A stretch of 34,448 nucleotides of DNA, taken from positions 1,963 to 36,410 of the forward strand of contig JAHBMJ010001014.1 in the NCBI GenBank assembly GCA_018398765.1. Direction: 5' to 3'. This document shows positions 2,751 through 33,619 of the stretch, one piece after another. How positions within the stretch are numbered: position 1 is the first letter of the stretch; each line of letters begins with the position of its first letter. Both the position numbers and the translations under genes were made by a program. The notes beneath the pieces are model-generated. The model had not been told where the DNA came from, searched no databases, and saw nothing but the letters and a program-made list of their open reading frames with translations. This DNA comes from Chromera velia. Taxonomy: Eukaryota > Sar > Chromeraceae.

Positions 2751-5633
2751 ATGCTTGCATTGGATCAGTGGATTCTCCTTGCGTGGGTATGTGGGGTGGT
2801 GAGCGTGTGGGTTCTCGAGCACCCTGTTCGTCGCCCCCAGACGAAATACGTGCGTCTGGCAAGACAAATGTCCATGGTGCGGAAACAGTGCGAGGGTGTG
2901 AGGGTGAGCGTACGTGAGTTCATCCACTCTTTCGGGTTCTTTGAAAATTTCGGTCTCGTCACTGCAATCGCCATCTTAGTTGAGGTGGGTTGCATGCAGT
3001 GAAAGAGACAGACACTGATCAGATATGTGACAGGCAGATTTGAAGGTTTTGAAGGGTGTGCTTCCGATCTTTTTGTCATGTTTTAGCAAACCACGCTGTC
3101 CATTTTTTTTCTTCGTGTCCTCTATCTTTCCTTTTGTCGCGAAGTCTCCTCTCTCTTTTCGTCTGTTTTGCCATCTTCGTCTGTTCACCATTTTCTTCCG
3201 CTACCCCCCCCTGCTCTTTCGCTCTTTTTTGCCGTGTTGCTTAGTTTCCCTTCTGCCTTGCACCCATTTCTTTGCCGCAACTCAAACCCTGATGCCCGTA
3301 CCTGCACACAACCGCGAACTAAGTTCAACAAAAGGTTTTGTACAATGCTCATCAATTCATCCGATTTGACTTGTGTCCCCCCCCTGTCGCAAAGCCAAGC
3401 CCGCCTCTGTCGCCTCTCCTGAACTGCTGCAGCATTAGCACCATTTCCCAAATCAGCGGGAGTATGGGAATTAATCTTGAGAAAAGAGGATCGAAACAGA
3501 AGAAATTAAGTCCGGTTAATTGTTGATTGGTCAACTCATTTGCGGAATATTTTTTGTGCCGACTGCAGCTCCACCTCTTTTTGACTAAGAGGGAGTACTA
3601 CAGCGGTGTCTTTTGGCATTCAGTGGTTGGGTATGTGGGGGCCAACCACCTGCTGTACGGCTTGCACAACATGGCGGGGACCTTCGGGCTGGTGTGTCAG
3701 GAGACGCAGAGTAAAATAAAAGAGGTGGCGGGGGTGGGAGGAATGCTGAAGAAAGAGATGGAGGGCGACGGCTGCATGGACAAATGGACTGTGTCAGTCA
3801 GTCTGTCTGTCAGTCAGTCAGGCACTCTGGCGCTCTGTGTCTGTCTGTCTGTCTGTCTTTTTTTGTGTGTGTCTCCGTCTATCTTCCCGTGCCTGCCTTT
3901 GTCGCCTGTTTGGACAGAAGGGAGAAAAAAAAAACACGGCGTACAGCCTGCCTATCTGTCTGTCTGCCTACCTGCCTGTCTGCCTAACTGCCTGCCTGTC
4001 TGTCTGTTCATGAAGAAAAGGAGGGAAAAGAAGTGGAAGAAACATATAGCCTGTCTGTCTGTCTGTCTGTCTGCCTGCCTGTCTGCCTGCCTGTCTGTCT
4101 GTCCCGACCGAATGTCTGTCCCGGAGACCCTGCTGGTTTGTCTGTGAGGCCGCGTGCGGGAAAGAGGAAGAAAGAAGACGTTGCAGCTAGGATCACCGTC
4201 CGGGTGCATTTTCTTTTTTTCTTAATTGGTACATTTTTTTTCACCGCCTGTTGTGCGTCCGTCGGTCTCTTCTTTTCTTCTGCCTATTTCCCCCCCTTTC
4301 TCTTGTAGATGTATCCCTTTTCTCCCCGTTCTTCATCCTCCAGCGCTCACCTGCCCACTTCCGTTCGTGTCTCTGTTTTGTTTTGTTGTGTTATCTGATC
4401 ATCCAATTTCGTCGCGTTCTTCCGTTCTTCTCCGTTTCGCCGCTCTCTGTTCTGCTGTCTTTCTACAAGTGTCTAATTTCTCTCCTTCTTGTTGCAGCAT
4501 TAATTCTCCGTCTGCATGCATGTTCTTCTCTCGAGCCCATTCTGGCGTCCCCACGACTGACTGAGATGGCCCCATGACTGACTGAGAAGGCCCCATGACT
4601 GACTGAGATGGCCCCATGACTCACTGAGATGGCCCCATGACTGACTGAGATGGTCCCATGACTGACTGAGAAGGCCCCATGACTGACTGAGATGGCCCCA
4701 TGACTGACTGAGATGGCCCCATGACTGACTGAGAAGGCTCCATGACTGACTGAGGCCCATGACTGACTGAGATGGCCCCATGACTGACTGAGATGGCCCC
4801 ATGACTGACTGAGATGGACGACACATGCCTGCCTGCCTGCCTATATGTCTGCTTGTTCGTGTGTCTCTCTGCAGATACTTGTGGAACTTCTCTGAACACA
4901 GACTGGCAGATGTCTGGGTGCATCTCGGCATGGCTCTCCTGCACCCGCTTCGAGTTGACCACTGGCTGTGCCTGGTCCTGCACGTGATGAAGTACAGCGG
5001 CCACCCGATCCCCCAGGGCCTCTCTGTGCCTGTGCAGGTAGTAAGTGCACGCATGCAGGTCTAGCTCTAGCTTTGGTGTTTGGGTGTGACGGTCTCAGCC
5101 GGTTGCTTGCTTTGCCTGTTCGTGTGTTCATGAGTACTTGATTTCTTTGAGTGCATACATGAGTGTTTTGATAGAAATCAAGTGTTATCTCTTGTCTGCG
5201 TTTTTTATTTTTTGCATTCCGACTCCCATTTGGTTCTCGATGTATCGATGGCGAGATCTTTGCATTGATTGATGTCACCTTGAACGTTGATGATACCTTC
5301 CTTGCATTGAAGGTACGATGCATGGGTGCCTCTACTCAATTGTCCCTGCACGCTATGCAGGTGGGCGCGGGGACACTTCCCCTCGATGACGTTGTGGACG
5401 TTTGGGCCCACAGTTTCTCGTCTCTCCGTGCACTCGGCGTTCGTTGGTTTTTGGTCTCGGTGGTCTTGGCGGAGGCGCAGAGGTGGATCTTGCGGAGGGA
5501 GGTGGTCTCACACCACGGGAAAAAAGGGAGGAGGGATGGGAGCCCCAAGTGCCAGGTGGAGACGGCAAAAAATGCAGACAACCGCCAGGATTCTCCAAAC
5601 GTCCAGGGTCCAGAATCAATCAAGGGAGGATGA
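2751..5633 (+). CDS. Predicted multi-pass membrane protein, four exons, unknown family
   Basis: Proposed exons are 2751-2984, 3569-3792, 4875-5040 and 5361-5633, giving 298 residues. All three acceptors end in TGCAG; donors are GTGGGT, GTCAGT and GTAAGT. Phases agree at each join: phase 0, then two bases left over at 3792 completed by one base at 4875, then phase 0. Hydrophobic stretches lie near residues 5-22 (WILLAWVCGVVSVWVL), 62-84 (spanning the first join), 89-105, about 168-185 (with LRVDHWLCLVLHVM) and about 227-245, suggesting four or five membrane spans. The C-terminus is basic and hydrophilic. The start was chosen as the first ATG of the exon; an upstream exon cannot be excluded. 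The donor of exon 2 could alternatively be GTGTCA two bases earlier, but that breaks the frame. I do not recognise the family. Introns 1 and 2 are pyrimidine-rich, and intron 2 carries CTGT repeats and a minisatellite. Confidence 0.65.
3793..4115. repeat. CTGT/CTGC tetranucleotide arrays in intron 2
   Basis: The intron begins with GTCAGTCAGTCTGTCTGTC, so the donor itself is part of the repeat. Further CTGT/CTGC blocks lie at about 3838-3860, 3948-4010 and 4050-4105, separated by purine-rich spacers such as GAAGAAAAGGAGGGAAAAGAAG. ORFs through this region (Cys-Leu-Ser-Val repeats) are artefacts of the repeat. Confidence 0.85.
4551..4816. repeat. 21-bp minisatellite, about 13 copies, in intron 2
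   Basis: The consensus unit is approximately ATGACTGACTGAGATGGCCCC. Copies vary at a few positions (GATGG versus GAAGG, one CTCACTG, one TGGTCCC), and one copy is shortened at about 4752-4760. It ends about 60 bases before the exon 3 acceptor. A minus-strand ORF through it (SQSVMGP-like heptads) is open only because 21 is divisible by 3. Confidence 0.9.
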
Positions 5634-5648
5634 CGCGTGGTGGATGGA

Positions 5649-5671
5649 CTCTCTCTCTCTCTTTCTCTCTT

Positions 5672-5716
<45 letters not shown>

Positions 5717-5770
5717 TTCTCTGTCTCTCTCCCTCTCTTTCTCTCTCTCTCTCTTTCTCTGTCTCTCTCC

Positions 5771-5813
<43 letters not shown>
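5649..5813. repeat. CT dinucleotide microsatellite
   Basis: About 165 bases of near-pure CT with scattered TTTCT, GTCTCT and CCCTCT interruptions lie just after the stop codon of the membrane-protein gene. All ORFs here (Ser-Leu or Arg-Glu repeats) are artefacts. Confidence 0.95.
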
Positions 5814-5816
<3 letters not shown>

Positions 5817-7451
5817 AATTGTCAGACAAATAGGCTCGCTGGCTGGCTGCCTGGCTGGCTGGCTGACTGACTGACTGACTGTCACCGTAAAACCGTAACG
5901 GTCGTGGACGGTTTCAGCCCTTCTCATGCAGTGGCCGGCTGAATCACTTCAAAGCAATCTCTCCGTGTTGGGCCTGAGTAGTGTTGGGCCTAGTTGGGCC
6001 GGCTGGACATGTGGACTCGATCGGAAAGATCACTGTGGCCTCATCCGATATACTACTAAGCATGCAGAACTAGATGCAGAAGATGGCTGAAAACGTACAA
6101 GAATCATTCTTCAATCCATTATGCAAGCTGTACGCGACTGCGGTGCCAGTGTGTAGCAAGAGGTGCAATACTGCTTGAACTTTGCCTCGAAGCCAGTCTT
6201 CTGTGTAGCTTATGTTGAGCTTATATTACTCGTATATAATATTTTAATTTAGAAATTAATAAGTATATGACTGTATATCTAAGTTATGTGAAGTTGCGTC
6301 ATACCTTGAGTTCTTAACTCCTAGCTTGACTCATGTACGTGAACAGAGCATAGTAAAATAAGTTACATTGCATGTACGCTAGCATGCACGGTCTTATTCA
6401 ACTACATATACAACCAAAAGGTTTGGCTGGTCAGATAATCAGAAACTACGTCAAATTAAAACGTGGCACACTTTCACCAGATATGCAACATGTGTGTCGC
6501 CACTGTTGCGGCGCACTGTCGTCTTTCACAAAAATGATTGGGACTAGTGGTGTTAGTGGCAGTGGTCAGACAGCTTTCAGTAATTAACATTTAGTCTCTA
6601 CTCACGACGACGATAATACGGTTTTGCATGAATTCTGGCATAAATTTAGCTTGTCTAGCTGTATCTATAGAATAAAAAATAAAATTATACAAATTAATTA
6701 ATTAATTCAATTAATTAATAAAAATTATTTAACTACTACCACATTATTTTGTATGTCATTTCAATTCCTATCTCAATTCAAGTTCATATTTAGATTCACA
6801 CTTTAATAACAAAACAGTCACAAAGTTGACACAAACATCCAAAACTTGCATAATTCTTCTATGGTTTACAAAGTGACATTTTTATTTACATATAGTACGG
6901 CGTGCTGAGGGATACTGAAGGGAGCCCATTGATCGGTTCATTCGGACAATCAAACGAGTCGATCGATCAAACTGAATTAACGTGCTGGTACGTAATTGAC
7001 GTATTCGCTTCCCCACCATGATCTTTGTGAGCGTGAACCCATGCATGCAGAGCATTTCACTCTAGATTTCACTGCTTCAATTAGACAAAAAATCGTTGGG
7101 CAGGGGAAAGAAAAATGCTTCAAGTGATCGATTGCTGCGGGTGTGAGTGGGAACTTTGACTGAAGAAAAAGGGACGGAAAGAAGGAAAGCAGATGGTATC
7201 TTCTGATGAGGCAGTCTGTCTGCAGATGCACAGGCCCGAAAGGAAACTTGAATGAAGGCTTGCGATGTTTGAGAGAATGAATTCAAGGTATTCTGAGATT
7301 GCCATGCAGCAAGCAAACTAACAAACTCGTACAAACTCGCCGAGCGGCCCGAGCGGCCATGCACCCCCTCCCCCCAAGATGCGAAATCAATTAAGTCAAT
7401 CAATGGAATATCGTTCATTCATTCATTCATTGAACGAAGACAATTAATGAC
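5814..7451. other. Convergent intergenic region with AT-rich core
   Basis: It separates the 3' ends of the membrane-protein gene and the aminotransferase. From about 6180 to 6900 the DNA becomes strongly AT-rich, with TTAATTAATTAATT-type stretches near 6690-6720. A 71-residue ORF at 6372-6587 has no recognisable domain. ORFs near 7000-7418 on the minus strand are downstream of the aminotransferase stop and look like untranslated sequence. No RNA gene seen. Confidence 0.5.
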
Positions 7452-8792
7452 TCACAATCGGTGTCTGCTACAGAAGGCCGCAATTCGATTCACGGCTTCC
7501 TCCAGCATACCGATCGGTGGGGTTGTGACTATCCGAAAGAACCCCTTATACTGAAAGCAGGCCCCCGGAAGCACAAACACACTCTCTTCCTCTAGTAGCC
7601 TCCTCCCAAACTCCTCATCATCCTCAAATTTCAACACCGAAGGGTCAACACGCACCATCACATACATCGCCCCCCGGGGCCTCACTGCCGTCAGCCCCTC
7701 AATCTTCTCAATCCCCCCACACACCACTCGCGCGTGCTCTTCCAATCTTATCTTCACGTCTTCAAAGTAGTCGGCAGGCGTTTTCTCCAACAAGGACGGC
7801 ACTAACGCCTGTGCGAGAGAACACGGGCCCAGATTGATTGTTGCCACCGTGCCCAAACCATTCCGCACCCCCCCCATCGTATTCTGCCTGTCATGCACAA
7901 TCACCCAGCCAACCCTCCAGCCGGGAATCATGAACTGCTTCGCCAGTCCTCCCACTGAGAGAATCGGCACGTTCTCACTCAGGGAAGAGGCAGAGTGAAA
8001 GGACACCCCTGGGAATCCCATGTCCGCATAGATCTCATCTGAGATTAACACCTTGCCTCTTTTCTCGAGGAGAAAGAGGAGGTCCTGCAGGTGCTCTTTG
8101 GAGAACACAGAACCTGTGGGGTTGGAGGGGTTGTTGATCAGTACTGCTTTCACATTCGGTTGGCTCTGCAGCTGTCTATCTAGGTCCTCTAGGTCAATCT
8201 CCCACTCCTTCTCTGGAAGGAGGTTGTAGTGTGAGAAGTGTATGCCTTTGCTTTCACACATCGTCTGATAGAGGGGAAACCCGGGTCGGGGCAGGAGGAC
8301 AGAGTCTGTTCCAGGCTCGAACAGAACGGAGAAGCAATAGTCAAGTGCTTGGGAACAGCCAGAGGTTAGAACCACGTCATTGGCTGTCAGTTGGGGAGAC
8401 GGGGATGGGGGGGAGAACCGTCTGGCGATGCAGCTTCGGACTTCCTGGTAACCGGATGAGTGCGCGTAACCGTTGTACCGTCCCGTCTCGTAGATTCTTT
8501 TCAATTCATCAAACACATGGGAGGGCGGTGTAAAGTTTCCAAACACCGTAGGATCACCAATGGAGAGGGGGATGACTTCCTTCTTGGGATTAGGCTTCAC
8601 GCCCATCCTGTCTACTAGCTCTCGAATCGGGTTGCGGGTGCGCTTCACGAGTTCGGACACCCCGACCTCCCCTGACTCTGTCAAAGAGGCAGCACGATGA
8701 AAACATCGCCTGAACAAACTCAAACGAGGAGACATGGGAATGCTTTTCTGCGAACGGTAAGAAGGCAGGGAGCTGCCCACCACAAACCACAC
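7452..8792 (-). CDS. TAT: Tyrosine aminotransferase-like PLP enzyme (class I/II aminotransferase)
   Basis: An uninterrupted 446-residue ORF covers the whole fold. Family enzymes move the amino group of tyrosine or related amino acids to 2-oxoglutarate using pyridoxal phosphate. Visible landmarks: NPSNPTG at 221-227, SDEIYADM at 251-258 with Asp252 for the cofactor ring nitrogen, GGLAKQFMIPGWRVGW with Lys285 as the Schiff-base lysine, and Arg420 in GFFRIV as the likely substrate carboxylate arginine. The tyrosine/nicotianamine aminotransferase subfamily fits best; exact substrate is inferred. Length matches the family (about 400-450). The first 45 residues are basic, Ser-rich and poor in acids, resembling a mitochondrial transit peptide, especially from Met20 (8735), which is an equally good start. 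A CTTTCAG just upstream of Met1 might be an acceptor for a 5' untranslated exon. The gene is intronless, unlike its neighbours, and divergent from the glycosyltransferase. Confidence 0.93.
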   Translation of the reverse strand: MWFVVGSSLPSYRSQKSIPMSPRLSLFRRCFHRAASLTESGEVGVSELVKRTRNPIRELVDRMGVKPNPKKEVIPLSIGDPTVFGNFTPPSHVFDELKRIYETGRYNGYAHSSGYQEVRSCIARRFSPPSPSPQLTANDVVLTSGCSQALDYCFSVLFEPGTDSVLLPRPGFPLYQTMCESKGIHFSHYNLLPEKEWEIDLEDLDRQLQSQPNVKAVLINNPSNPTGSVFSKEHLQDLLFLLEKRGKVLISDEIYADMGFPGVSFHSASSLSENVPILSVGGLAKQFMIPGWRVGWVIVHDRQNTMGGVRNGLGTVATINLGPCSLAQALVPSLLEKTPADYFEDVKIRLEEHARVVCGGIEKIEGLTAVRPRGAMYVMVRVDPSVLKFEDDEEFGRRLLEEESVFVLPGACFQYKGFFRIVTTPPIGMLEEAVNRIAAFCSRHRL

Positions 8793-9348
8793 TGAAAGTT
8801 AATTTAAATATTCTTTCCACCTGAGCAACAGATGACGTCGCCGGAGCGCTCTGACAACGGTGGAACAGTTTCGATTCAGACAGTCGACTATTGTTGATCT
8901 GCGCTCTGCGTGAGCTTCACTAGGGGAGGGGGGTCAGCCTTTAGCACCTGTTCTGGTGGTTCTTCGAAACTTCCACTCTCAATTGGATGAAATGCCGAAT
9001 TGAGTCTTCGCTCCGGTGTTTGAACTTGACCCTGCATGAACGAAGAGTCTGAGATCTCGAGTGTCTGCTCCCCGCGCGGCGCCGCGGATCAATCGCGCAT
9101 GCATGCATGCATCTGCGGCGCCGCGTGTCATCGCGCGGAAAGATGGATGGACGGGTCGATCGGCTTGACATCACTGAGAGGAGGTTCAGTGATGAGGTGG
9201 GCACCGATTGCATCATCAAACGCAAGTTGCAGTCAGTCTTTCTTTGTAATTGCAAACCGTGATGCGGACTTGCTGTACATATTGACCGAGAAAGAGCAGA
9301 CCCATCCGCCCCTCCGTCCATCCATTTTCGCTCCTCGGGCGTGCAGGC
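8793..9348. promoter_or_regulatory. Divergent intergenic region, probable shared promoter area
   Basis: These 556 bases separate the starts of two divergent genes, so both promoters must lie within or near them. A symmetric block at 9072-9140 holds two copies of the palindrome GCGGCGCCGC (9076-9085 and 9115-9124) flanking CGCGCATGCATGCATGCATC. GCATGC-type sites are known ApiAP2 targets in apicomplexans; use here is inference. ORFs crossing the region on both strands are not convincing. Confidence 0.45.
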
Positions 9349-12300
9349 ATGCATGCCTCGCCCGCCTGTGGAGCGAGGGAGGGCTCCCCTTCCTCTCCTC
9401 TGGTCATCAGGGGGAAGTGGTGCAGGGTCAACCGAAGGACTCTGCCCTACTACCTGAACAGCACAACCTACTGGATGGGCCTGTTGGGCCTGATCGTTGC
9501 CTGGGCCTTTGCGTTTCTGTATCATGGGGGAGTCTTTTGTCATGTCCACGGGTGTCCTGTGGTCTTTTCCTTCTCGCACTCTTCCGACTTCCACTTCTTC
9601 TCCATTCTGCTCAATCTGATCATGTACGCGTACTATCTGCCCACCACTCTTGCGGGTGCGTTTCTGTACCTCCTGGGGTTCCTGAATCCTCACGGAATGG
9701 AGGCCCACAAAAAGGTGGACTGGCGGAAGGTAGCACAGGCCTTCACGCTGCCTCCCGGTGCGTGTCGGTGGAAGCAGAGGCACAGAAGGATGATCTTCAG
9801 AGTCGTCACAAAAGGAAGGGACGCCGAGCTAATCGATGAGGTGCTCAGACACAACCTCCCGATCCTCCACGGGTTCATGAACGACGGCGTGCTCTTCTCC
9901 CCCGTGATTGAAATTGTGACTGACCTGAGCCTCCCAAACTTCGACCACTTGCACGCACTGGGCCACAGTCTTGGCGTCTTAGTGCGTCAGATGGTTGTCC
10001 CTCCCGACTACCGAACACCCCGTGGGTCCAAGTTCAAGGCACCTGCCCTTCACTACGCAAATGTGGTCGGGTTCCATCCCGTCTACGTTCAGACTGAAGA
10101 AGCAGGCATCGAAACGCTCAAGCAAACAGACAGAAGGGAGCAGAGAGGCGAGGAGAGAAGAGAGAGGAGATTCAGAGAAAGACCTTCAGGAGGTGAGGGG
10201 GGGACTGGTGCCGCATTGGCGGTGTTGGATTTCCCCTTCAACAGCACCAGCAACAACAGCACAGACAGAGGAGCATCCGAAGTGGATCCGTGGGGGGACG
10301 AACCAATCTCCCCCCAGTCACCCCTCCCGATCCCCCCCCCTGCTCTCAGAGGCCATGCAGAACTTCCTTTCCACTACCCCCCCCAGGCTCCTGCTCCTCT
10401 CCCGAACACAGCCCCAAATCCCATCCACTCCCCTGTGGGGGGGGGGNNNNNNNNNNNNNGGGGGGGGGGGGGGTCCATCTGCCCCCCCGTCATGGAGACG
10501 GATCTGATCATCCACTTAGACGAAGAGACCAAATTGACCGGTCAGTCCGTGGGTGGCTGGGAAGACACGCATTGTGTTCCGTTCTCGATGGCTTGGTTGG
10601 TTGATTCAGTCCGTTTGCTTCTTTTTTGTTTTCTTCGTTTCCTAGGAGTTGCCAGTCGGTCACGTCCCTGAAATGACCCCTTTTTGAAGATGAGTCTCGA
10701 CACCGTCTGGTCTCTTTTGTCCCCCGTGTCGAAAAGAATTGGTTGGCCGAAGAGAACCGAACGAAGAGGAACGTCTGTGATAATCCTGTGCCCTTTATAA
10801 GCTTCGCTTCCCACCTTCGTTCCCTCCCACGTGCACCAGATCACTTTAGTGCTTCTGCCTACTCTGTCCCTTTATGTTTCGTTCGCTTGTGAGGTTAAGA
10901 GAACCGATGGACACTGCTTTAATTTCCAGACAACACAATCATACACTGCACTGCATGCAACGCAACACACTTTAATGGTCTGCGTGCATGGACGTGCAGG
11001 TGAGGCCATCCAGGGCATCATGTGCTTCTACGCGGACTCATTCTCGAAGGCGCAGAATCGAAACAAGAAGAAACAGCAGCAGAAGGAAAACACACAACGG
11101 AAAAGACCGAGGGAGGGCAGAACAGGCAGAGAGAAAGAGAGGGAGAGAGGCAGATTAAGCTGTTGCCCTGCCCGCAGGCCCTGGGGACAAAAACGGGACG
11201 GCAGGAGGGGGAGAGACAGAGGGGTAAGAGACGGCGCCTCCCTTTCACCCAACAACAGACGAAGCCCCATGCAGGTTCCGAGATCCTCTTGGGACTCTGC
11301 GTCCCCTTCTCCTGCTGGTCGGGTGCTTGACAGAGAGAGAGAGACGGAGACGCTGATAGAGGAGGGGCTTCTTCTGCCTCAAACTAGTCAGCAGACAACC
11401 TCCCTCTCCTCATCTAAGGGGGGGAAATCGTGCAAAGGCGAATCGGCACAGGCGGGGGGGTTTGATGTGGTTGGTCAGGGGGTGATTGTGTACGGTCACG
11501 AGACCCCCACCTTCCTCCCGGCCACTTTGGCTGACTCCACTCGCGTGACTGACGACTACGCCCGTTTCCGTCTTTTTTTTTCCATCACTGGCAGGGCTCT
11601 GCAGGGCATGAAAGGTTCTTATGTCTGCGTGCCTGCGTGGATGGAGAAGGATCCTAATGAGGCCTCCTCCTGCAGTGGGATCGGGTTACCCGATCGAGAC
11701 GGGGAGTCAGAAGAGGAGGGTGTGGGGTTTGACGTTGGGGAAGACAACTCCATCACAGAAGATGCCGCATTCGGTCTTCTACTGATGCAGAAAGGCATCA
11801 AAGTTGGGTTTGTCCGTGGTGTGATGATGGAAAAGTCGCCCTATTGTTGGGACGATTTCATCAAACAACGTTCTCGATGGATCCAGGGACTCTGGAAAGT
11901 TGCGCTCTCCTCAGATCCAAGATTGCCCCTCTCCTCCCGCCTCTGTCTCCTCTTGGCTGTCTACCTTTTCTCTGTACTCCCTGTGAACCTCCTCATGGCC
12001 CCGCTCATGTGGCTCGCACCCCGCAGCTGGACTGTGCTGATCTTCGGCAGTCTCACACACAGTCTGGTGATGTGGGGGTATGCCTTCGGTGCCCTCCACA
12101 ACATCCGCCTCCCCCCTGCCTCCTCGTTAGCAGACTCAGCCGCGAACATCTTTTGGAAGGGCGCGCTAGTGCTTGTGTGCTGTGGCCTCTCGCCTGTGTG
12201 GTTGTACTTTGAGGCCGCGAGAATTGCACACGCAGCATGGACTTGGAGCACTAGGTCGAGGGGGTTCCATGTAATCCAAAAGAGTACTTATCGGCAGAGG

Positions 12301-13326
12301 GAGCAGGAAGAAGAGCAGGCAACGACAGACACGGGGGCAGAGGAATCGAGAGAAAGTGGACAGTCAGTAGGGGAAGAAGGAGATGCGTCCTCCTCGTTGA
12401 GTGGAACAAACATGAAAAGTGAGATAGAGGGAGAGGTGTCTGTTCGGTCGGGAGGACCAACTCCAGAAAGACAGTCAAACCCTTTGACTCTTTCCTTTTC
12501 TTCCCTTTCCCTTTCGTTTTCGATGCCCCTGCCTCCCCAACTAAACATCAACCTCCCCTCCCTCTCGTCACTTCCCCGTTTCCTCAAAAAGCTCTCAGGC
12601 GCCTCGTCAGGGGCCCAGAGTGGGACGACACAAGAGGGAGAAGGAGGTACGCGTGATGACCTCTTCATCTCCTCAGACAGAGACAGTGACTCCCCGTCCT
12701 CCTCTGCGTGGACTTCCTCTTCTTCCTCAGGATCTTCGTCTGTCCTTCTGCCCTGTGCAAAGAGGGAGAAGAAACAAACAAAGAGGGAGAACGAGTCTGT
12801 TCCCGACCTTCGCACCACAAACGCAAACAGAAGCAGGAGAGCCGAAATAGACCTCCCTGGAAAGAAGGAAGAGAGCGTGGAGGAAAAAGAAGCGCCCGAC
12901 GCAGCTGTCCCTTTCCCAGACGAGAGGGGCCCCTGGATGGACAGTCTGTCTGAGTCTGAATCAGAATCAGAGGCCGACTCGGAGACGGAGTCAAGGTGTG
13001 GGGTAGAAGAACAGGAAGAGGATGAAGAAGAGCAGCTAGAAATGACCCTGCAGAGCGCGGGAGTGCGACTCGACAGACAGTCCTTCTCGGAAGGTCGCGT
13101 CGTCATTTCTTCTTCTGCCTGTCCCTCTCCAGACAACAGAAAGAAAGACTGCAACAGAGAGAGGAACGGTGGGGGGGAGAGGGAACCGGAAGAGAGGGGG
13201 GGCCCGAACGTTCTTCAGATTCCTCCCGGGGCACCTCTCCGTTCCGATTCTTTCGACTTCGACCTCAACCTCGCAGACAAATGGGGACAGCCTCAGGGCC
13301 CTCCGCATCCTTCTCCCTCCCTCTGA
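9349..13326 (+). CDS. Egghead-type GT2 glycosyltransferase (beta-mannosyltransferase-like) with long inserts
   Basis: Two exons, 9349-10540 and 11000-13326, join in frame (ACC-G|GT) across donor GTCAGT and acceptor TGCAG, giving about 1172 residues. The order of motifs follows the egghead/BRE-3 beta-1,4-mannosyltransferase family: two N-terminal membrane segments, FRVVTKG, VIEIVTD, VPPDYRTPRGSKFKAPALHY, IIHLDEETKLTGEAIQGI (acidic motif at Asp391), GQGVIVYG, TLADSTRVTDDYARFRL, GSYVCVPA, SITEDAAF (Asp652), EKSPYCWDDFIKQRSRW (QRSRW at 687-691), then C-terminal membrane segments ending FHVIQKS. Animal members transfer mannose from GDP-mannose onto a glycolipid at Golgi/ER membranes; the donor and acceptor here are unproven. 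Low-complexity inserts interrupt the domain before HLDEE (about 10120-10490) and after GIMCFYADSF (about 11040-11450). About 340 Ser/Glu-rich residues follow the domain. Undetected introns inside the inserts are possible. The first insert contains a gap of Ns. Confidence 0.87.
10437..10473. other. Assembly gap (13 N) inside a poly-G run
   Basis: Thirteen undetermined bases at 10447-10459 are flanked by 10 G on the left and 14 G on the right. In the glycosyltransferase frame this encodes a glycine run within the first insert. The frame is the same on both sides, but the true length of the gap is unknown, so this could be chance. Confidence 0.95.
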
Positions 13327-15373: not shown

Positions 15374-16091
15374 ATGGGTAGGCAGGCGAGGCGACGCGGC
15401 GTTCCTTCTTGCAAGAAGACTCTTTTTCTTCTCCTTCTCTTGTTGTCGTTGCCCGTGCGCTCAACATCCTCCCATCGATCCCTCTGTCCGATCCCATGCA
15501 GACAGACAGGCTCGTTTTGGCCTTTCAGGACCGACGGTGCAACCATTGCGGGCGTAAGTGTGACTGACTAGCGGCCTCGTTAGATTGATGAGGGAGAGCG
15601 TGTTGAACGGCTTGCTTAATTTGTTGTCTTCAGTACGTTTGCGTCGATCCCTCTTTCTTTTCTTTTCTTTTCTTTTGGACAGGCGCGTCTTTCTTTCGTT
15701 TGGTTCGCTTATTTCCTTCTTGCGTGTCATTCTCTCTCTCTCTCTCTTTCTCGCGAGGAGCTGAAAGGAAGGAAAGAAGGAGCCCTCTTTGGAGCTCCAT
15801 CCATCAATCAATGAATCGTTCGAGCCTTCCTCTTTTTGTGATTGATTGCCTGAAAGGATGGTTGGTCTTCTCCTCCCTCTCGCTTCTGTTTGAATGGTTT
15901 TGGGGCTGTACGTTCACAGGGGGAAGGAGACAAAGAGAGAGGTCAGCAGTCGAAATGGAATTTACGGACACAGAAATGGATGCGGATACAGGGACCTCAT
16001 TCTTTCTTCACGCAACACAAACACATTGAAGGGTGGAGGGAGGGAAAATGTGCAGACTGACTTAAAGAAACATTGGGCACGCACAGCATGA
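15374..16091 (+). CDS. Possible small secreted protein, two exons (weak)
   Basis: An ATG at 15374 opens a basic N-terminus followed by a hydrophobic core (KKTLFLLLLLLSLPVRSTSS) that looks like a signal peptide. The ORF reaches a strong donor GTAAGT at 15553. Joining 15552 to 15920, after an acceptor CACAG, keeps the frame and stays open to TGA at 16089-16091, predicting 116 residues. The acceptor is not the TGCAG form of the better genes, the intron is CT/TTTTC-repeat-rich, and no domain is recognisable. It may be an untranslated region or a chance ORF; I include it because of the signal-like segment and the donor. Confidence 0.22.
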
Positions 16092-16383
16092 AGCGATTCA
16101 TTCCACATCCCCTCCCTGCATGCCCCCATGCTCATTCACTCACTCACTTGCGGCCTCTCTACACAACTTGTTTAATGTTACCCTTCCTTCTCCTCTCCAT
16201 GCAATTAAGTGAAGGTCCACATACCCCTTTCCCCACCCACCACGCCCCACCACCCCAAGAGAAGAGAAGAGAAGATCCCTGAGGGAGGCATCACTCCACT
16301 CCCTGTCAATTTCTTTTTTTTCTCGTCTTTCTTGGTGAGAGAGGGCAAGCGAATGACTCAACTAGCTAGCGTCTCTCTTTCCC

Positions 16384-18028
16384 TCAATATCCGTACCCCA
16401 CCATCCCCCCATAGGCAGGCATGCCTCCTGCGTACGTTGCGGGCATTCCTCCGTAAGGGTAGGAGCCAGACATAATCATGGGCTGCTGATGGGCGGACAT
16501 CGTCATGGGCTGCTGCTGCATGGCCATGGGCTGCATTCCCACTCCCCCCCAGGTGCCGAATCCCGGCTGCATCATCTGCTGCGGCTGCACCATGGGCTGT
16601 TGCTGCATGGATTGGAATCCCGGCTGCATTCCCATGGGCCCCATTCCTGTTCCCATACCTGCCATGGGCTGCTGCTGCATGGCCATGGGTTGCTGCTGCT
16701 GTGTCATCATTCCTCCTCTTCCGAGTCCCCTCTGCTTGACCTGGGGGCCTTCGTACTCGAGGAAGTTGGTGCGGGGGAGGTTGGCGCCGTCTCCGCCGTC
16801 GAAGAGCCACTCAGTGGGGGGGGTCCTGTGACGGGCCACTGCATGCAGCCAGCCATACGGACGGACAGAAAAAGGGAAGGAGAGAGAGGGAGGGAGAGAA
16901 AGCATGGGTGGGTCTGTCAGTTGGGAGTGAGTGAGAAGTATGAGCAGAGAGAAAGATGATGGTTTCCTCAGACAAGTTCGCAGGGCGTTTGAAGACTTGC
17001 AATTCGAGATGTTGCAAACAGAGAAGAGAAAAGGCTGACAGATGGATGGATGTTGATCAGATGGCCGGCTGCAGTGCCTATCTTGAATCGAAGATCGAAT
17101 TGCGTGATAGGCGGATTGGGAGAAAGCAGTTAACTGAATGACGAAACACAACAGTCCTCTGAAGAACGCACATGAAGGAGGGCATGTATTGCCTAACTAA
17201 CTGTTGCTGACCAAGGGTGAGTTCGAGAGTCTTCATCTTGGTGGCGAATCTGGTCTCGTCCATGAACCCTCCTGACATCATGCTGTTCTCCGTCACAAAC
17301 TGCATGCAGAACTGGCATTTGTTGGAGTCTGCCGCACAGCCTGCGCAGAGCCTCTGGAGAATATTTCCCTCCTTGTCCTTCACCAACACGGGCGCCCTGC
17401 CCCATGCACCGAATGCCATCCGTTCTCTCTGAATGTCCTCCTTGATTTTCAACCAGGGGACTGGGCAGATGTTCACATTGCACGCGCAGCAGGGCACAGT
17501 GGTGTCGTGGTTGTGGTAGGGGCCGCCAACCTTCTCTGCGTAGATGACGGTGGTCGCAAGAATTCCTGCACAGAAGATTCGGAGACAATGGAAGACGTGT
17601 ATGGAGCGGGACGGAGCGTTTACGGCCCGCGCAAGTGTTGTGAAGGTCAGTCGAAACTTCGAATACTTACTGTCGAGGTCGGACTCGAAAGTGGCAAGGG
17701 TTGGGAGGATATCCTTGCATCCCTGGCAGAGAGGGAGTGCGCTCATGATCTTCTCCTTTGAGAGGACCATCATCACCGGGTTCGGGTAGCACGCGCTCTC
17801 TCCGCAGTCGTGACAGTGCTGTCCTCCGCAAACGCTGATAACAGCTGTCTTACCTCCGGTTTCAGTTTCCTGGGTCTTGGTGCCTCCAAAGCAGCTTTTT
17901 GACGTTTTAGCCGGCATGGGGAGCCCCACCAGCTTGTTGTAGCAGCATTCGCATGCCATCATTCCCTTTTGCGGCTGGTCCTGCTTGAAAGTGCCGGCTG
18001 TCGCCACGGATCTCTGCATTGGCATCAT
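16384..18028 (-). CDS. Cysteine-rich, probably zinc-binding protein with Q/M/G/Y-rich tail
   Basis: Three exons in transcript order: 18028-17671, 17565-17212 and 16838-16384, giving 388 residues. Donors are GTAAGT and GTCAGC; both acceptors end in TGCAG; one base is carried over at each join and the frame is restored exactly. Residues 26-206 hold ordered Cys/His clusters: C26, C28, C29; HCHDC at 71-75; CQGC at 101-104; CCAC at 145-148 plus C153; CAGC at 193-196; CQFC at 203-206. This spacing suggests structural zinc sites, an inference. The last exon starts near ARHRTPPTEWLF, then becomes a tail of QQQPM repeats mixed with Gly, Met and Tyr, ending YGGMVGYGY, like the low-complexity tails of RNA-binding or condensate-forming proteins. 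I do not recognise the family. It is divergent from DNAL1 and convergent with the glycosyltransferase. Confidence 0.72.
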
Positions 18029-18754
18029 CTTGTGGTATATCGATATATGTACGTGTTGTTCGACAGAGAAAGAGTGTACACGGACTTCGACTGTGTCGTT
18101 CAGGTTTCTGGAGCTTTTTCAGAGGGTCTATTCCTTTACAGGTAATTGTCAACGTAGCAGAAGAATCCAGAAGAGGTGTTGGGGAGTTCTGAAGCAAGCC
18201 TTGATTCCATTGCTGCATGCAGGACGCATTCGTTCTTGAGAGATCCGTGCGACTGGCACATGCTCAGTGAAATCGTTGAATTAAGTGCCCCGCAAAAGGG
18301 CCAAATTTGGGACAAAATAGACGTAAGTGCCACACACACGCACACTTCGGGGCCATTTGGTCACGGGGCCCACCGCGGGCCCGAATTTAACTCACGTACG
18401 CCCGTGCATCTGCGTGCTCAAAATGTGCATAATGCCGGGGCCTTTCGGGCCATGGATGATCATGGATGCATCAAATGAACTTACATATATAATTGGTCAG
18501 TGATGACGGACGAGATCGAGACCAATCTACAATCTTCGTACGTCACTGTGTTCATTCCTGGGCAGCACTCGATCTCCCTTAAATTGCTTACATCAGAGCC
18601 CTCCTTTCTTGCACGAGGGCAGCCTGTCCCGTTTCATTGCAGCCGCAGAAGCCGAACAACAGTTGCGTACCACAGCATATCTCTTTAGCCAAGCTCACGT
18701 GGGTGAGGTTGTTGTTCTTGTCTTTGGTGTATCGAGTTCAGCAGGGAGGGCAAC
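18029..18754. other. Divergent intergenic region with GC palindromes
   Basis: It lies between the starts of the cysteine-rich gene and DNAL1, so it should include both promoters and leaders. A GC-rich stretch at about 18350-18455 contains two GGGCCC palindromes (18366-18371 and 18377-18382) and GGCC-TTTC-GGGCC near 18439-18451. ORFs at 18176-18478 and 18500-18688 have no domain. A 5' untranslated exon for DNAL1 could be present. Confidence 0.4.
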
Positions 18755-20523
18755 ATGACGAGTTGTGCGAAGGCCATCCAGATGTGGGAGGAGAAGACCG
18801 AAAAGGTCGCAGCAGAGGCAGACGAGGTAAAGCTGATCTGTCAGGTCCCTCCCATCACAAAAATGGACGCTGCGTTGAACACTCTGGTGAACTGCAAGAA
18901 ACTCTCTCTGTCGACCAACTCGATCGATAAGATCATCAACCTTCCGAACCTCAGTCAGTCATCAGGGAATTGATCAGTGAGCAATCTTACCTTATGCCTT
19001 TTCTTCACACCGTACGCATCAGTTTTCCTTCAGGCTCATGAAATTCTTCTGTTCATCAGGATATACACACGCGCGTTCTCGGACCCTGGCATGCCCATAC
19101 ACTGCCCAGAAAGAGAAATCTGTTGCTGTGGATTGTATGCGTGCCTCTTCACTTCCTTGCCTGCTCATTCCTTGCACCCTTGCCCCTTTCTCTGTTTCTT
19201 TTTCTTCCCCCCCCTTTCTTCTTTCCGACTTTCCTTCTGTCCTCTTTCCGGTTTTTCCTGCCCTCCCTGCTTCCTTTCCTGCCTCCCCCCCTTGCTTCCT
19301 TCCTTCCTTGCTTCATTCCTTCCTCTTTTTCTTCCTTCCTTGCTTCCTTCCTTCCTTCCTTCCTTCCTTGCCTTCTTTCTTCACTCCACAGTTCCTTACC
19401 TCCCTCCTCTTTTTCTTTTCTCGCTTTCCTTTCTGCTTCAGTCCCTCATTCTTTCCTGTGCGTCAGTGCACGCACGCACATGCCCATACATTCGTTGTGC
19501 TTCTCTGAGTCTGCCTGCAGAGAACCTGGAGATTCTCTCTCTAGGACGGAATGTGATCAAAAAAATCGCAGGGTTGGATGAGATCGGGGCCACCTTGCGA
19601 GAGCTGTGGATCTCCTACAACCTGATCGACAAACTCGATGGCCTTTCGCCCTGTGTGAAGTTGCAAGTGCTCTTCATGAGCAACAACAAGATCAAAAACT
19701 GGGAAGAGATCGAGAAATTGGTCGGTTGGTTGGCTGCCTATATGCCGCTCCTTCCTTCCTTAAATTCGGACCCTAGATTTCCTTCTGATCCTTGATTCAA
19801 GATATTCGGGACAGCCCATGCGAATTCTTCGGTGACCTTAGATCGCCTGTTTGGGCTTTGTGTGGTTTTTCGTCAATATCTTGCACAGAATGGTGTGTCT
19901 GAACGTAGAGGACCATCTTCTGTCTCCATTCCTCACTCCCTCCCTCCCTGCCTACCTTGAATGAAGGGCAGAAGAAAATAAACAAAAGAGGAGAGAGAGA
20001 GAGAGAGAGAGATTACATCGGACTCGACATTCAAACGCGAAGGCTCAGAACACATAGAAAGAAGCACATCTATCTGCTGTCTATCTGCCTGCAGGCCTCC
20101 CTGCCCGAGCTCCAGAACGTTCTCTTCATCGGAAACCCAATCTATGACGGTTTCTCGAAAGTCAGTCGAAGTTAGGAAGGAACAGGATGAACTGTCTGAT
20201 TCTTCTCTCTCTCTCTCTCTCTCTCTCTCTTCCTTTCTTCCTTCCTTCCTTCCTTCCTTCCTTCCTTCCATTCCTTCCGTGATACCCTTTTTTTCTTTCT
20301 TCTCTGAGTCAGTTGCTTCTTCCGATGCTTCTGCTCTCCTTTCTTTTCGTCGTCGGCCGTGTACATGTCCTAGCGCACAATTTTGTGCGTCTGGCTGCTT
20401 TGTGATGGCCTATCCCTTCTTTTCCTTCCTTTTCTTTTTCTTCTTTCTGCACATCCGAATGCAATCCTCGAACCGTGCCTCCCTGAAGATGTTACCACAC
20501 ACACGCACACACACCGACACACG

Positions 20524-20564
<41 letters not shown>

Positions 20565-21075
20565 CCCGCTTCCCCTTTCTTTCATCATCCTTTTTCCCTT
20601 CCCTTGCCTTTCCGTTCCTTGAATCTTCCATGGTGATACATACACACAAACCTGTGTGTCTGTATGAAACTGTGAGTGGTAGAGTGACTGAATGTGTTTC
20701 TGGGTGACTCTGTGAATGAATGTGTGTGAAAGAGAGAATGCGTGAGTGAGTGAGTGCGTGAGTGCAGGAGGACGTGAAACCCAAAGTCGTGAAGAGGCTT
20801 CCCAACATCAAGACACTCGACGGCCAGCTGGTCGGTCGGCCGGCCTTCCCGTCCCTTCTCTTCTCTTTTCATTCTGTGTGTCGGCCTGTCTTCCTGTCAG
20901 TTTGTCTTGTCTGGAGTACCTCAAGACAAAGAGGAAAAAAAAAAAAAAGCAATCTGTCAGTCTCTCCCTGCCTGGCTCTCTCTGTCAGAAAGGAAGCCCC
21001 CATCTTCACTCAAAGTAAAAGGAAGGAGATGGAATAGAAAAGGGAAGAAGAACAAGAAGAGGAGGAAGAAAAACA

Positions 21076-21106
<31 letters not shown>

Positions 21107-21693
21107 GAGAAGAAGAAGAAACATATAGTCTGTCTGCCTTGTCTGTTGTGTTCATGAAGAAAAGAGGGGAGAAGAAGAAGCATTTAGTCTGTCTTGCTAG
21201 AGTCGGTTCATCCGTCAGCGCTTAGAATGGTCTTTGCTTTTGTCGTGAGACTAGAATGTCCGAAAAAAAACTACAGCTCATACGGTCTGCACATCTGCCC
21301 ACCTATCTGTATGCATCCGTGCATGCATGTCTGTATTGAGACAGAGCTGCATGGGTCCTCAGTGGTTCTTCAAAATGAACGATCTGTATTCTGTAATCCC
21401 TTCAAGCGCATTGTTTATTTACCCATTGACTGTTCGATGATAAGGTAGGTAGGGAAGGGACTCTTGTCCCGTCCATCCAGCCCCCCCTTTAATTTTGTGT
21501 TTGCACACTCATGTGTGTCACGCTCTCTCGTTCCTTTGCCGTTTGGATGTCGACACGTAAAGGCGTGAATTATCTCAGAGTTCTCTCGGCTTTGCGTTCT
21601 GACGCACGCATGCACACGCCTCCTTCCTCCCTTCGCTTGTGTGGACTGCAGGTTTCGGACAGCGTGAGGGAATTGGCGGGATCTGCCGACTGA
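18755..21693 (+). CDS. DNAL1: Axonemal dynein light chain 1 (leucine-rich repeat protein)
   Basis: Five exons, 18755-18953, 19521-19720, 20095-20160, 20768-20830 and 21652-21693, give 189 residues, essentially the family length (about 190). Frames agree at every join: one base at 18953 completes Lys in [12 protein letters not shown], the rest are phase 0. Family landmarks in order: [109 protein letters not shown]. These are the leucine-rich repeats and C-terminal cap. Orthologues bind the motor domain of the outer-arm gamma heavy chain and the A-tubule, tuning ciliary motility, so the organism should make motile flagella. All four acceptors end in TGCAG; donors are GTCAGT, GTCGGT, GTCAGT, GTCGGT. 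The last exon (14 codons) is the least certain, chosen for acceptor, phase and total length. Introns are packed with simple repeats. Confidence 0.95.
19170..19445. repeat. Pyrimidine-rich tract with CCTT repeats, DNAL1 intron 1
   Basis: Almost uninterrupted C/T sequence with TTCCTTCC tandem blocks near 19300-19375. It lies upstream of the exon 2 acceptor. Ser/Phe/Leu/Pro-rich ORFs across it are artefacts. Confidence 0.85.
20203..20278. repeat. CT then CCTT microsatellites, DNAL1 intron 3
   Basis: A CT dinucleotide block (about 20203-20230) passes into TTCC tetranucleotides (to about 20278), shortly after the exon 3 donor at 20161. Confidence 0.9.
20495..20563. repeat. CA dinucleotide microsatellite, DNAL1 intron 3
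   Basis: ACACAC repeats with a few G and T interruptions in the left half and a pure CA run from about 20526. A GTGA/GAATGTGT-rich stretch follows at 20670-20765, just before the exon 4 acceptor. Confidence 0.92.
21077..21107. repeat. CTGT microsatellite, DNAL1 intron 4
   Basis: Nearly eight perfect CTGT units, followed by a GAAGAAGAAGAAACATATAGTCTGTCTG segment that resembles a spacer in intron 2 of the membrane-protein gene (about 4030-4060: GAAGAAACATATAGCCTGTCTG). Confidence 0.9.
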
Positions 21694-22597
21694 TGGGGGC
21701 ATCGCCTCTCCTTTGCTGGTTGGCGACTGGCTTAGCGATTGGTGGAGGGAAAGCAAAAGGTTCCCGGGCACACACGTCAAGTTTGGTTTTAGAATCATCT
21801 GCTGATGCAAATTACATGATCGCATCAGCAGGCAGTATAAAGAATTGACTTAATTGTATTGAAATACACATACATATAAAACATGCAAGCAAGTTGAAGC
21901 AACAAAAGTTCAGTAAAAACTAGAGTAAAAACTGTACATTGCACAAATACATTAATATTGAAATACTAACTATTACTAAGTAACTGTTCAAGTTCGAAGT
22001 TCATTATAATTAGGAAAGTACATCGTCTTGTTTCTATATTTGATTGATTTGATTGATAACTTGAATGAAATAGAAATTATAAAATTCTAATCAATAAATT
22101 GTTGAATATAATCAGAATGTTGATCTTCTATATATTAACATATACTTGCATGGAGGATATACTAAAATTAATTAACTTAAAATTAAGTTAAAGATAGGAT
22201 AGGATGAATGTTCCGGCTAACGTTCATTTATGACTAAATTTGCTCTATATTGTTTCTTTAATTCATTCGCTGTCGCATCTTCTGTTAGACTCCCCGGGAT
22301 CATTTGTTCACGATGATCGAAGGCCAGTGCATCTTCTTCTGCCAAACGCCGCATATTAACACCTCTTAGATTGATTCTCTTCTCTCAGAGACTGCATACA
22401 TGTGTGGAGAGCCATCAAACCAGTCAGGAGTCTGCATAGCTTTCTTTCCTTTTGCTGGAGTCAGTCTCAACGCTTCAATGTGTATATATGCAGGCGTTCG
22501 AAAGACTACTGTATGTAGTGATTCACTCTCAAGGGTGCATGTGCACACCGTAAGCAGATCATCCATGCACCTTCTTTACCGCAGGGAGGGAAGGGAT
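21694..22597. other. Convergent intergenic region, AT-rich
   Basis: Between the 3' ends of DNAL1 and the secreted-protein gene. From about 21840 to 22260 it is strongly AT-rich. ORFs near 21700-21850 and 22366-22566 are short and without domains. No RNA gene seen. Confidence 0.5.
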
Positions 22598-25426
22598 TCA
22601 CGCCGTCGGCCCCTGAATTTCAAACATTTCGTCTTGTGCCAGTCCCTGCGCGATTGCAACCGTGTACGCAAAGGGGGGTACCTCGGGTCCCTCATATGCC
22701 GGATTGTACTGCTGGAAGATGTCCGCCATCAGTTGACCGACATCGACGTTCCCCCCCATGGAGCCTTCCAGACCTTCCGCCTCCACAAGGGCCTTTACGG
22801 ATTTCGCATTTGCCAGTCTTTGGGGGGTTGCGGAGAACTCGCCGTCTTTGAACTCTGGCTGGAAGACCTCATAGAGGGCTTTGGCAGGGGCCATCTCCTG
22901 ATCTTTGCTCAGCCCGCCGGACTTCCACAGGTCCATTGCCCAGCCATACCAGAAAGATTTCTTCCCCTGCGTACTAATCTCCAGCAACCACCCCCTTTTG
23001 TAAACTTCTTCAAACGTTTCCGCGATGTCCTTAACCCCCGACTTCAAATATTCGAACCACCCCTCTTTGCCTTCTTTCTTCTTCTCTTCAACTTCTTCCT
23101 TCAGGCTGTCCAGCCTTTGGAGTTCGTCCATTTTGTCGAAGAATCCTGCCAGACAGACAGACAGAAAGACAGACAAACAGGCAAACATATAGACAAGCAG
23201 ATAAATAGACAAGCAGCCAAACAGACAAACAGACAGACAAACAAACAAACACACAAACCGACAAACATACAAATAAGATAAACAGGCAGACAGACAGACC
23301 GAGCCACACAGTGAAAGTGTAAGTGCGTGTGTGTGTGTGTCATAGAATACATACATAAATTTGGATGACTGAATGCATGATTGCATGCCAACTCAAGTCA
23401 TGAGTGCATCATCTTCCCATGATTGACTGCCAACTCGTATTTATCTATGAGGAAGGAACCTCACACCGGTTGCCTTTCTGCCTGCGTGAATAGATCGAAA
23501 GATTCATTTGAACAGCCGTGAGACAGACGTGAACGAACGCAACTGGAGGGAGACAGGGGCAACAGTCTGAGTGGAGAGACAGAGAAGTTTGTTGAGCATT
23601 CGACACAAGGTGCAAGCAGATCGAGAGCAACAACTGAATTGTATTTCCGCCTTCTCCAGACAGACGTCGGTCAGACAGCTAATTTTGCTTTTTCTGAATG
23701 CTGTCTCTTCCTTCTACAGACAGACGGACAGACTGGTAATTTTGTTTTTTTTTGAATGCCGTCTCTTCCTTCTATAGACAGACGGAGAGACAGGTAATTT
23801 TGTATTTTTTTTTTAATGGTGTGTCTTCCTTCTCCAGACAGACGGACAGACAGTTTTTTTTTTTTTTGAATGGTGTCTCTTCCTTCTCCAGACAGACGGA
23901 GAGACAGGTAATTTTGTTTTTGTTTTTAATGGTGTCTCTTCCTTCTACAGACAGACGGACAGACAGGTAATTTTGTTTTTTTTTTGAATGGTGTCTCTTC
24001 CTTCTACAGACAGACGGACAGACAGTTTTTTTTTTTTTTTTGAATGGTGTCTCTTCCTTCTACAGACAGACGGACAGACAGTTTTTTTTTTTGAATGGTG
24101 TGTCTTCCTTCTCCAGACAGACGGACAGACAGTTTTTTTTTTTTTTTGAATGGTGTCTCTTCCTTCTCCAGACAGACGGAGAGACAGGTAATTTTGTTTT
24201 TGTTTTTAATGGTGTCTCTTCCTTCTACAGACAGACGGACAGACCGAATTTTGTTTTTTTTTTGAATGGTGTCTCTTCCTTCTACAGACAGACGGACAGA
24301 CAGTTTTTTTTTTTTTTTGAATGGTGTGTCTTCCTTCTCCAGACAGACGGACAGACAGTTTTTTTTTTTGAATGGTGTCTCTTCCTTCTCCAGACAGACG
24401 GACAGACAGTTATTATTATTATTTTTTTTTAATTATGTTCCTTCCTTCTCCAGACAGACGGACAGACAGATACGCAGCAACACTGACAGACAGCAATCAG
24501 GCAGGCAGTATGATTTCTTCAAACCGACCTTGGGTTACGAAATGTAAAACAGAGACACAAACAGAGACAGAGGAGGAGGAACAAACAAAGAAAGACAGCC
24601 AAGGCTGACCTTGGGTACCCATGATCAGAACACCCAGCGAGGCCTTGACATTCCGCATGCCCTTTATCCAGTGGCGCACATCGGCGGTCTTAATCGACAG
24701 CCTCACAGGACGGCACTTCTCCTCTGTCCCAACAACGCCTTTCTCTGTCCGGGCATTCCCCTCAAACTCGGCATCGGGGTGCTGCATTCCGCGGCACCAG
24801 TCCCAGGCACTGCTCTTTAGAGTATAGTCGTATCTGAGTGGGATAGTTCGGACTTGGGGCCCAGTGGTACTATTGTCGATCCAAACGGCCCGCACTGTCC
24901 CCATGGTATTGCCCATTCTTCCAATATACATCTCCCCTTTCAGGTAGAAGGCGATCTGCACATTCACGCCGCCCTTAATCGGGCCAAGCTGCTCGACAAG
25001 TAATGACTGAATTTGACCGAAAGCGTCCTCGAGCCCTCGGGAAAAAGAGAGCCTTATACCGGTGACCCAAGGGTCATCTCTGGCGAGGTCCTCACTGACA
25101 GCCGAAGTACCAGTCCTCATTGCTTCAGCGAGCAGGGGGAAGGCGGCGCTCAACCACTTCCCCCCCTCTGGACCAAAAGCTTCACAGATGAGCATCGCCC
25201 AACCGTTGGTAAAAGTGAAGGTCTCCGCTTTGTTTTTGGCATAATTCTCGGAAATCGTTCCGGGCAGACTCACACCCCCAAGCAACCACTTTCCATCATC
25301 CACTGTGGCTTCAACGGGCGTGAACACCTCAGGCTCGGTGTCAGTTTTTGTTGCTGACTTGAGCTTTAGTGCGAAAGTTTGCGCGAAGATCGCGACGAAG
25401 ATGATCACAGCAGTCGGGTACTTCAT
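22598..25426 (-). CDS. Secreted protein of unknown family, two exons
   Basis: Exons 25426-24610 and 23145-22598 (transcript order) give 454 residues. One base at 24610 plus two at 23145 complete a Gly codon, so the frame is exact. The donor is GTCAGC; the acceptor ends in GGCAG. Residues 1-19 (MKYPTAVIIFVAIFAQTFA) form a clear signal peptide with likely cleavage after FA, so the protein should enter the secretory pathway. The first exon encodes a mixed alpha/beta-looking domain with few cysteines (LICEAFG, WDWCRGM, EEKCRPV). The second starts with a charged segment likely to form a coiled coil (DELQRLDSLKEEVEEKKKEG), then a Trp/Tyr-rich region (KSFWYGWAMDLW) and an acidic C-terminus. I see no known domain or catalytic motif. 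Its 1464-bp intron contains two large repeat arrays. Confidence 0.75.
23146..23310. repeat. CAGA/CAAA tetranucleotide array beside the intron acceptor
   Basis: On the + strand it reads CCAGACAGACAGACAG, then CAAACAGACAAACA variants. On the transcribed (minus) strand this is a CTGT/TTGT array that runs straight into the acceptor TCTGGCAG of exon 2. A GTGTGTGTGT run lies at about 23327-23340. Confidence 0.9.
23649..24475. repeat. Minisatellite of about 52-60 bp, 15 copies, inside an intron
   Basis: Each unit reads on the + strand CTTCCTTCTMCAG, then ACAGACGGACAGACAG, then either GTAATTTTGT or directly a poly-T run of about 9-15, then GAATGGTGTCT. Copies start near 23649, 23707, 23766, 23825, 23879, 23937, 23997, 24052, 24104, 24158, 24218, 24276, 24328, 24381 and 24442. 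Unit length varies mainly through the poly-T run and presence or absence of GTAATTTTG. The host gene runs on the minus strand. ORFs here (QTDRQ repeats) are artefacts. Confidence 0.92.
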
Positions 25427-28142: not shown

Positions 28143-28144
28143 AT

Positions 28145-33526: not shown

Positions 33527-33619
33527 CTTCTCCCTATATACATTCCTTCCCCCGCTTGCTACATTTGGGTAGACTGAAGGCTTTTCTGTCAAAAAAAAAA
33601 AGGGGAAAGAGAACCAAAT

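Follow-up and report, generated by a model that had tools for sequence, protein, structure and literature searches.

What reads the third base of an intron when that base is so often a cytosine? The reading of donor position +3 is usually credited to pairing with U1 snRNA, and the question is raised here by a stretch of 34,448 nt of the Chromera velia contig JAHBMJ010001014.1 (hereafter the window), in which an initial annotation named eleven donor splice sites. All eleven hexamers are present at their coordinates and on their strands, and the count of eight donors with C at +3 was reproduced. We consider below whether this pattern extends to the rest of the genome, and at which step of splicing such a base might be favoured.

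Introns of the window

The predicted window introns fall in five translated gene models (DNAL1, a glycosyltransferase, a cysteine-rich protein and two without a name), and open frames are kept across the joins of all five. Those outside DNAL1 are as follows.

2985..3568, forward strand: intron 1 of the gene at 2751-5633; GTGGGT donor, CTGCAG acceptor (hexamer check, gene finder, in-frame join)
3793..4874, forward strand: intron 2 of the same gene; GTCAGT donor within GTGTCAGTCAGTC (hexamer check, gene finder, in-frame join, sequence reading)
5041..5360, forward strand: intron 3 of the same gene; GTAAGT donor (hexamer check, gene finder, in-frame join, sequence reading)
10541..10999, forward strand: intron of the family-2 glycosyltransferase gene; GTCAGT donor, GTGCAG acceptor (in-frame join LDEETKLTGEAIQGIM)
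17566..17670, reverse strand: intron 1 of the cysteine-rich-protein gene; GTAAGT donor (hexamer check, gene finder, in-frame join)
16839..17211, reverse strand: intron 2 of the cysteine-rich-protein gene; GTCAGC donor, ATGCAG acceptor (hexamer check, gene finder, in-frame join)
23146..24609, reverse strand: intron of a gene with no Pfam match; GTCAGC donor, TGGCAG acceptor (hexamer check, gene finder, in-frame join)

Of the GTs beside donor 3793, neither that at 3791 nor that at 3797 keeps the frame with the acceptor of that intron; donor 5041 has an in-frame alternative at 5038 (GTAGTA), with A at +3 in both. In the glycosyltransferase gene, whose exon downstream of the intron matches PF13632, the gene finder described below chose the same donor, 10541, but placed the intron end at 10689. 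Pfam searches returned no match for two later open frames of the gene at 2751-5633, for the cysteine-rich-protein gene (a name given by eye) or for the two open frames of the gene with the 23146..24609 intron. All eleven donors were also predicted by the gene finder, which is blind to +3, an agreement limited by the use of window exons, among them the joined DNAL1 CDS, as its seed; it adds ten window introns that are absent from the earlier list, some of them plainly doubtful.

Several other features of the window were apparent. Tandem arrays of CTTCCTTCTCCAGACAGACGGACAGACAG-like and CCCCATGACTGACTGAGATGG-like units lie within introns at 23640-24470 and 4555-4815 (by eye), and a run of N at 10447-10459, in a G-rich part of the glycosyltransferase exon, is probably an assembly gap. 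Two near-alike direct-repeat blocks, about 1.7 kb apart at 26430-26800 and 28135-28505, look by eye like parts of a mobile element, and the end of the window (33600-34448) carries open frames which, again by eye, resemble a retrotransposon Gag region.

Introns were placed by homology through spliced alignment to reference proteins, with all GT and all AG words scored equally and GT-AG ends only; the margin of a donor is the score lost after that donor is blocked, and donors were counted at a margin of at least 5. The five-exon DNAL1 product matches LC1 of 7k5b, its best PDB match and presumably the Tetrahymena protein, with an E value of 2.6e-67 over residues 2-183 of 189, spanning all four junctions with a single one-residue gap, near join 3.

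18954..19520, forward strand: DNAL1 intron 1; GTCAGT donor, CTGCAG acceptor; homology-fixed, margin 27
19721..20094, forward strand: DNAL1 intron 2; GTCGGT donor, CTGCAG acceptor; homology-fixed, margin 36
20161..20767, forward strand: DNAL1 intron 3; GTCAGT donor, GTGCAG acceptor; favoured by its acceptor and smoother join, and by the gene finder
20831..21651, forward strand: DNAL1 intron 4; GTCGGT donor, CTGCAG acceptor; chosen weakly, margin 3

Judged from this alignment, DNAL1 is secure as a gene, but its joins are not all secure by homology. The first three had been described as fixed by the protein family, which stands for joins 1 and 2 and not for join 3, where a rival intron (GTTTCT..GTGAG) is ahead by 1 point in the flat GT/AG aligner and donor 20161 is preferred only because of its TGCAG acceptor and smoother join.

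Cytosine at +3 beyond the window

From 177.8 Mb of genome in 4,040 contigs, we took 23 homology targets: 16 Ras/Rab regions (of 48 Ras matches, picked for partial or several exons), four ubiquitin-conjugating-enzyme regions (of 37 matches), LUC7, RPS18 and DNAL1, the Ras and ubiquitin-enzyme regions being picked blind to their donors. Of the 23, L055 yielded no intron; the other 22 yielded 57, 51 of them with a margin of at least 5; the six left out below that margin (G 3, T 2, C 1) include DNAL1 joins 3 and 4. At +3, the 51 homology-fixed donors carry C in 26 cases, G in 13, A in 9 and T in 3, and outside the window the counts are C 24, G 13, A 9 and T 3 for 49 donors in 21 genes. The share of C is similar at margins of at least 15 (22/41), at least one C donor is found in 15 of 22 genes, and the gene-bootstrap 95% interval for C is 37-64%. 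GTCAGT is the most frequent hexamer (16/51), and a purine at +3, the mark of GTRAGT, is present in only 22 of the 51, such that the donors here are, as first proposed, not of the GTRAGT kind. On the evidence of these alignments, C is the commonest donor base at +3 in this genome, in about half of the introns examined; the initial annotation was therefore right about which base leads, whilst its word "dominated" suits the eight of eleven in the window better than this less extreme share.

A second set of introns came from a self-trained gene finder, run on 20 random stretches of 5.9-10 kb (four with 1,054 to 5,000 N, and the sources including L011, home of two introns of the homology set), in which donor +3 was given no weight and the start set consisted of the window exons (with DNAL1) and three long open frames. 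Seed codon statistics with a bare GT yielded just 47 noisy introns, with C at 0.36 of +3 positions, and iteration with +3 kept neutral yielded 173, window included, with C 0.40, G 0.28, A 0.18 and T 0.13. C stays at 0.35-0.46 across cut-offs on the flanking-exon score, and where both flanking exons score above 15 (n=34) G leads C by 0.41 to 0.35. Among the 86 non-window introns with a TGCAG end and G at +5, a filter chosen after the fact, the counts are C 41, G 22, A 13 and T 10. Considered as words, GTCAGT, the most frequent donor here too, is called in 26 of 189 occurrences, GTGAGT in 9 of 186, GTAAGT in 5 of 73 and GTAGGT in 7 of 48, so the calling rate of GTAGGT is as high as that of GTCAGT. 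A model allowed to learn +3 returned C at 0.51 and was set aside because it is self-reinforcing.

The donor and acceptor signal

Around +3, the 51 homology-fixed donors carry G at -1 in 71%, A at +4 in 59%, G at +5 in 98% (50/51) and T at +6 in 80%. The acceptor of the same introns is a near-invariant TGCAG (T at -5 in 96%, G at -4 in 92%, C at -3 in 100%; for example at 19516-19520, 20090-20094 and 21647-21651), with T at -9 in 65%; to our knowledge, a near-fixed G at -4 is unusual. A search close to the acceptors brought out no conspicuous branch-point word. U12-type donors read RTATCC, and in a test of GT starts GTATCC occurs in none of the 51 donors and GTATCT in one. By these signals, the introns are ordinary nuclear U2-type GT-AG introns, whose donor consensus appears to have moved from GTRAGT to roughly AG/GTCAGT. 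The suggestion that positions +4 to +6 carry more weight agrees with the strength of all three, and yet by itself leaves the frequent C and the rare T without explanation.

C donors also differ from the others at neighbouring positions, the effects being modest and the p values uncorrected for eleven tests. A at +4 accompanies C among the homology-fixed donors (19/26 vs 11/25, p 0.048) and again among the 128 gene-finder introns outside the window that end in CAG (29/52 vs 24/76, p 0.010), but this does not hold in the 86 cleanest introns, a subset of the 128 (22/41 vs 19/45, p 0.39). T at +6 accompanies C in the 128 (41/52 vs 39/76, p 0.0017), a set in which false introns could imitate a coupling of +5 and +6. 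C at -3 is scarcer with C donors among the homology-fixed introns (6/26 vs 14/25, p 0.023), a difference that the gene-finder introns do not repeat (15/52 vs 29/76, p 0.34). Compensation on the exon side for a lost U1 pair was not found in the homology set, where G at -1 accompanies C in 17/26 and other bases in 19/25.

How much of this is simply composition? Of the GT words in the sampled DNA, 28.8% are followed by C, and of those within the same introns 31.0%, as against 26 of 51 donors (binomial p 0.0007 and Fisher p 0.0035, respectively); against GTNNG words the p value is 0.012. Relative to GT words in the same introns, A is raised about 1.9-fold and C about 1.6-fold, with G at about 0.7 and T at about 0.24. 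At +3, then, A and C are preferred to G and T, the excess of C itself being modest (51% vs 31%), and C is the top base partly because GTA is rare in this genome.

U1, U6 and the protein factors

A DNA search recovered five U1-like copies. L001 (full) and L002 begin AAACTTACCTGG, which over twelve bases differs from the Rfam consensus only at nucleotide 2; the 3'-truncated copy at L060:1-251 retains AACTTACC; the copy at L061:1-251 is diverged or truncated at its 5' end, its match being limited to nucleotides 6-68; and that at L003:1501-1607 is without a 5' end. The ACUUACCUG 5' end is present in three of the five (L001, L002 and L060), and position 6 is T in all four copies that reach it, and so the altered U1 5' end offered as one explanation fails for the copies found. 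In U6, ACAGAG is intact in 7/7 matches and the longer ACAGAGA in 6/7. With U treated as unmodified, the U1 duplex energies are -11.9 kcal/mol for A at +3, -7.8 for C and -8.0 for T, and because the values for C and T are about equal, U1 pairing offers no explanation of C over T. That C cannot pair with the pseudouridine of U1, as had been stated, is in any case too strong, considering that, according to PMC3950712, a duplex can be more stable with pseudouridine paired to C than with U in its place.

As for protein factors, LUC7 exons lie on one contig, zf-U1 matches occur at two places, and by eye the U1-C finger looks canonical. The C-terminus of SNRNP27K is likewise canonical by eye and retains QYMNRKGGFN, the methionine of which is, on our reading of PMC10581693, probably human M141. 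A METTL16-like gene is present too; the names METTL16 and U1-C rest on reading of the translated exons, the Pfam families for the two having matches also among 14 prokaryote control genomes, in 5 and 1 of them respectively. The idea of altered splicing factors gains no positive support from the canonical U1-C finger and SNRNP27K motif. That the shift towards C is real, and that a changed U1 is not its cause, we hold with far greater confidence than the pairing with U6 discussed below.

What could favour C?

The simplest cause would be an expressed U1 variant with G at position 6, which would pair with C at +3. No such copy was found: besides the T at position 6, a pattern search that left U1 positions 5 and 6 free gave ACTTACC in both of its two finds, and within a search that a strongly diverged U1 may escape, in a possibly incomplete assembly, we regard this cause as very improbable indeed. 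Unlikely too, if less starkly so, is a protein variant (LUC7, U1-C, PRP8 or SNRNP27K) that would recognise or tolerate C at +3 directly. The genome does hold LUC7 exons and zf-U1 matches, and LUC7 proteins and SNRNP27K bias donor classes according to PMC11732430, but the U1-C finger and the SNRNP27K C-terminus argue in the other direction.

Perhaps the donors arose from GTCA/GTCG tetranucleotide repeats, in which case C would be microsatellite sequence and not a matter of recognition. Several donors read GTCAGTCAG, C is present in 6 of 9 tandem GTNN/GTNN donors, and among the homology-fixed donors C at +7 is linked to C at +3 (15/26 vs 6/25, p 0.023); however, without the repeat-like donors C still comes first (17/37, with G 10, A 7 and T 3), and the link to +7 lacks significance among the gene-finder introns (23/52 vs 26/76, p 0.27), so that such an origin has, in our estimation, little to recommend it. 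Distinctly more credible, whilst still doubtful, is mere tolerance, whereby +3 would be nearly unread, the signal would be carried by +5G, +6T and TGCAG, and C would be common since GTC words are common. Indeed, 29-31% of GTs are followed by C and just 9-15% by A, +3 holds just 0.36 bits relative to intron composition, and T is less rare in the gene-finder set (10/86). On the other hand, an unread +3 predicts T near 18-25%, where T is found in 3 of 51 donors (p 0.0005 vs 24.5%), and C stands above its level within introns, also among GTNNG words.

Our preferred reading, which we put at somewhat short of an even chance, is a positive preference for C at a step after U1. U1 would pair despite the mismatch at +3, relying on -1, +1, +2 and +4 to +6; C would then be favoured later, most likely at the hand-over to U6. 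In PMC9803359 and PMC11732430, G44 of U6 is placed opposite +3, usually A or G, its interaction there being weak at transfer and more stable later. Opposite G44 of the ACAGAGA box, C could make a Watson-Crick pair, where A or G would have just weak contacts at transfer; a C donor would lose one contact with U1 and gain one with U6, whilst T, also a mismatch to U1, could at best wobble with G44, and T is rare. It is possible, if doubtful, that C at +3 pairs with G44 in this way after U1 leaves. We posit with similar reserve that the donor may have given up a contact with U1 in exchange for one with U6, the helix between U6 and the donor being extended inward, and that the hand-over, not first recognition, would have driven donor evolution. 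RNAduplex runs against a fragment of U6 lend this no support, in that the +3:G44 register did not form and the energy for GUCAGU (-0.1) was weaker than that for GUAAGU (-1.4). Also against our preferred reading, the enrichment of A relative to GT words of the same introns is no smaller than that of C. Considering that the enriched bases, A and C, are the amino bases and that G and T are depleted, the pattern may suggest, again with reserve, that what is read at +3 is an amino group facing G44.

Comparison with known donors

With the major U2-type GTRAGT donor, the introns of C. velia share the GT start, +5G, +6T, -1G, the U1 ACUUACCUG and the U6 ACAGAG; they differ in having C at +3 in about half of cases, a purine in 22/51 and T rarely. 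In the U6-leaning GURAG class (PMC9803359, PMC11732430), recognition likewise leans on +4 and +5 through the ACAGA box of U6. This genome also has SNRNP27K and a METTL16-like gene, but C replaces R at +3 and could pair with G44. In Saccharomycotina, a donor switch between +4A and +4U is tied to METTL16 and SNRNP27K (PMC10581693), and both cases would be a lineage-wide move of one donor position with the core conserved, the position here being +3 and the move towards C, with homologs of both proteins present. Amoebophrya is, like C. velia, an alveolate with unusual donors; however, more than 60% of its introns lack GT-AG ends and no U1 was detected there (PMC7789003), whereas here U1 and GT-AG introns were found, GT-AG being the only ends sought. 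C at +3 in chromerids was the subject of no title or abstract opening listed in a search of a mostly open-access literature. The donor variant is new; the introns that carry it are of the known U2 type and not a new kind.

There is a practical side to this: where gene finders and read mappers judge donors by GTRAGT, some half of the introns here could be scored wrongly. More broadly, a genome that combines C as the leading base at +3 with an unchanged U1 would make U1 pairing separable from the later contact with U6, and the introns of C. velia could therefore serve as a natural test of the role of the +3:G44 contact.
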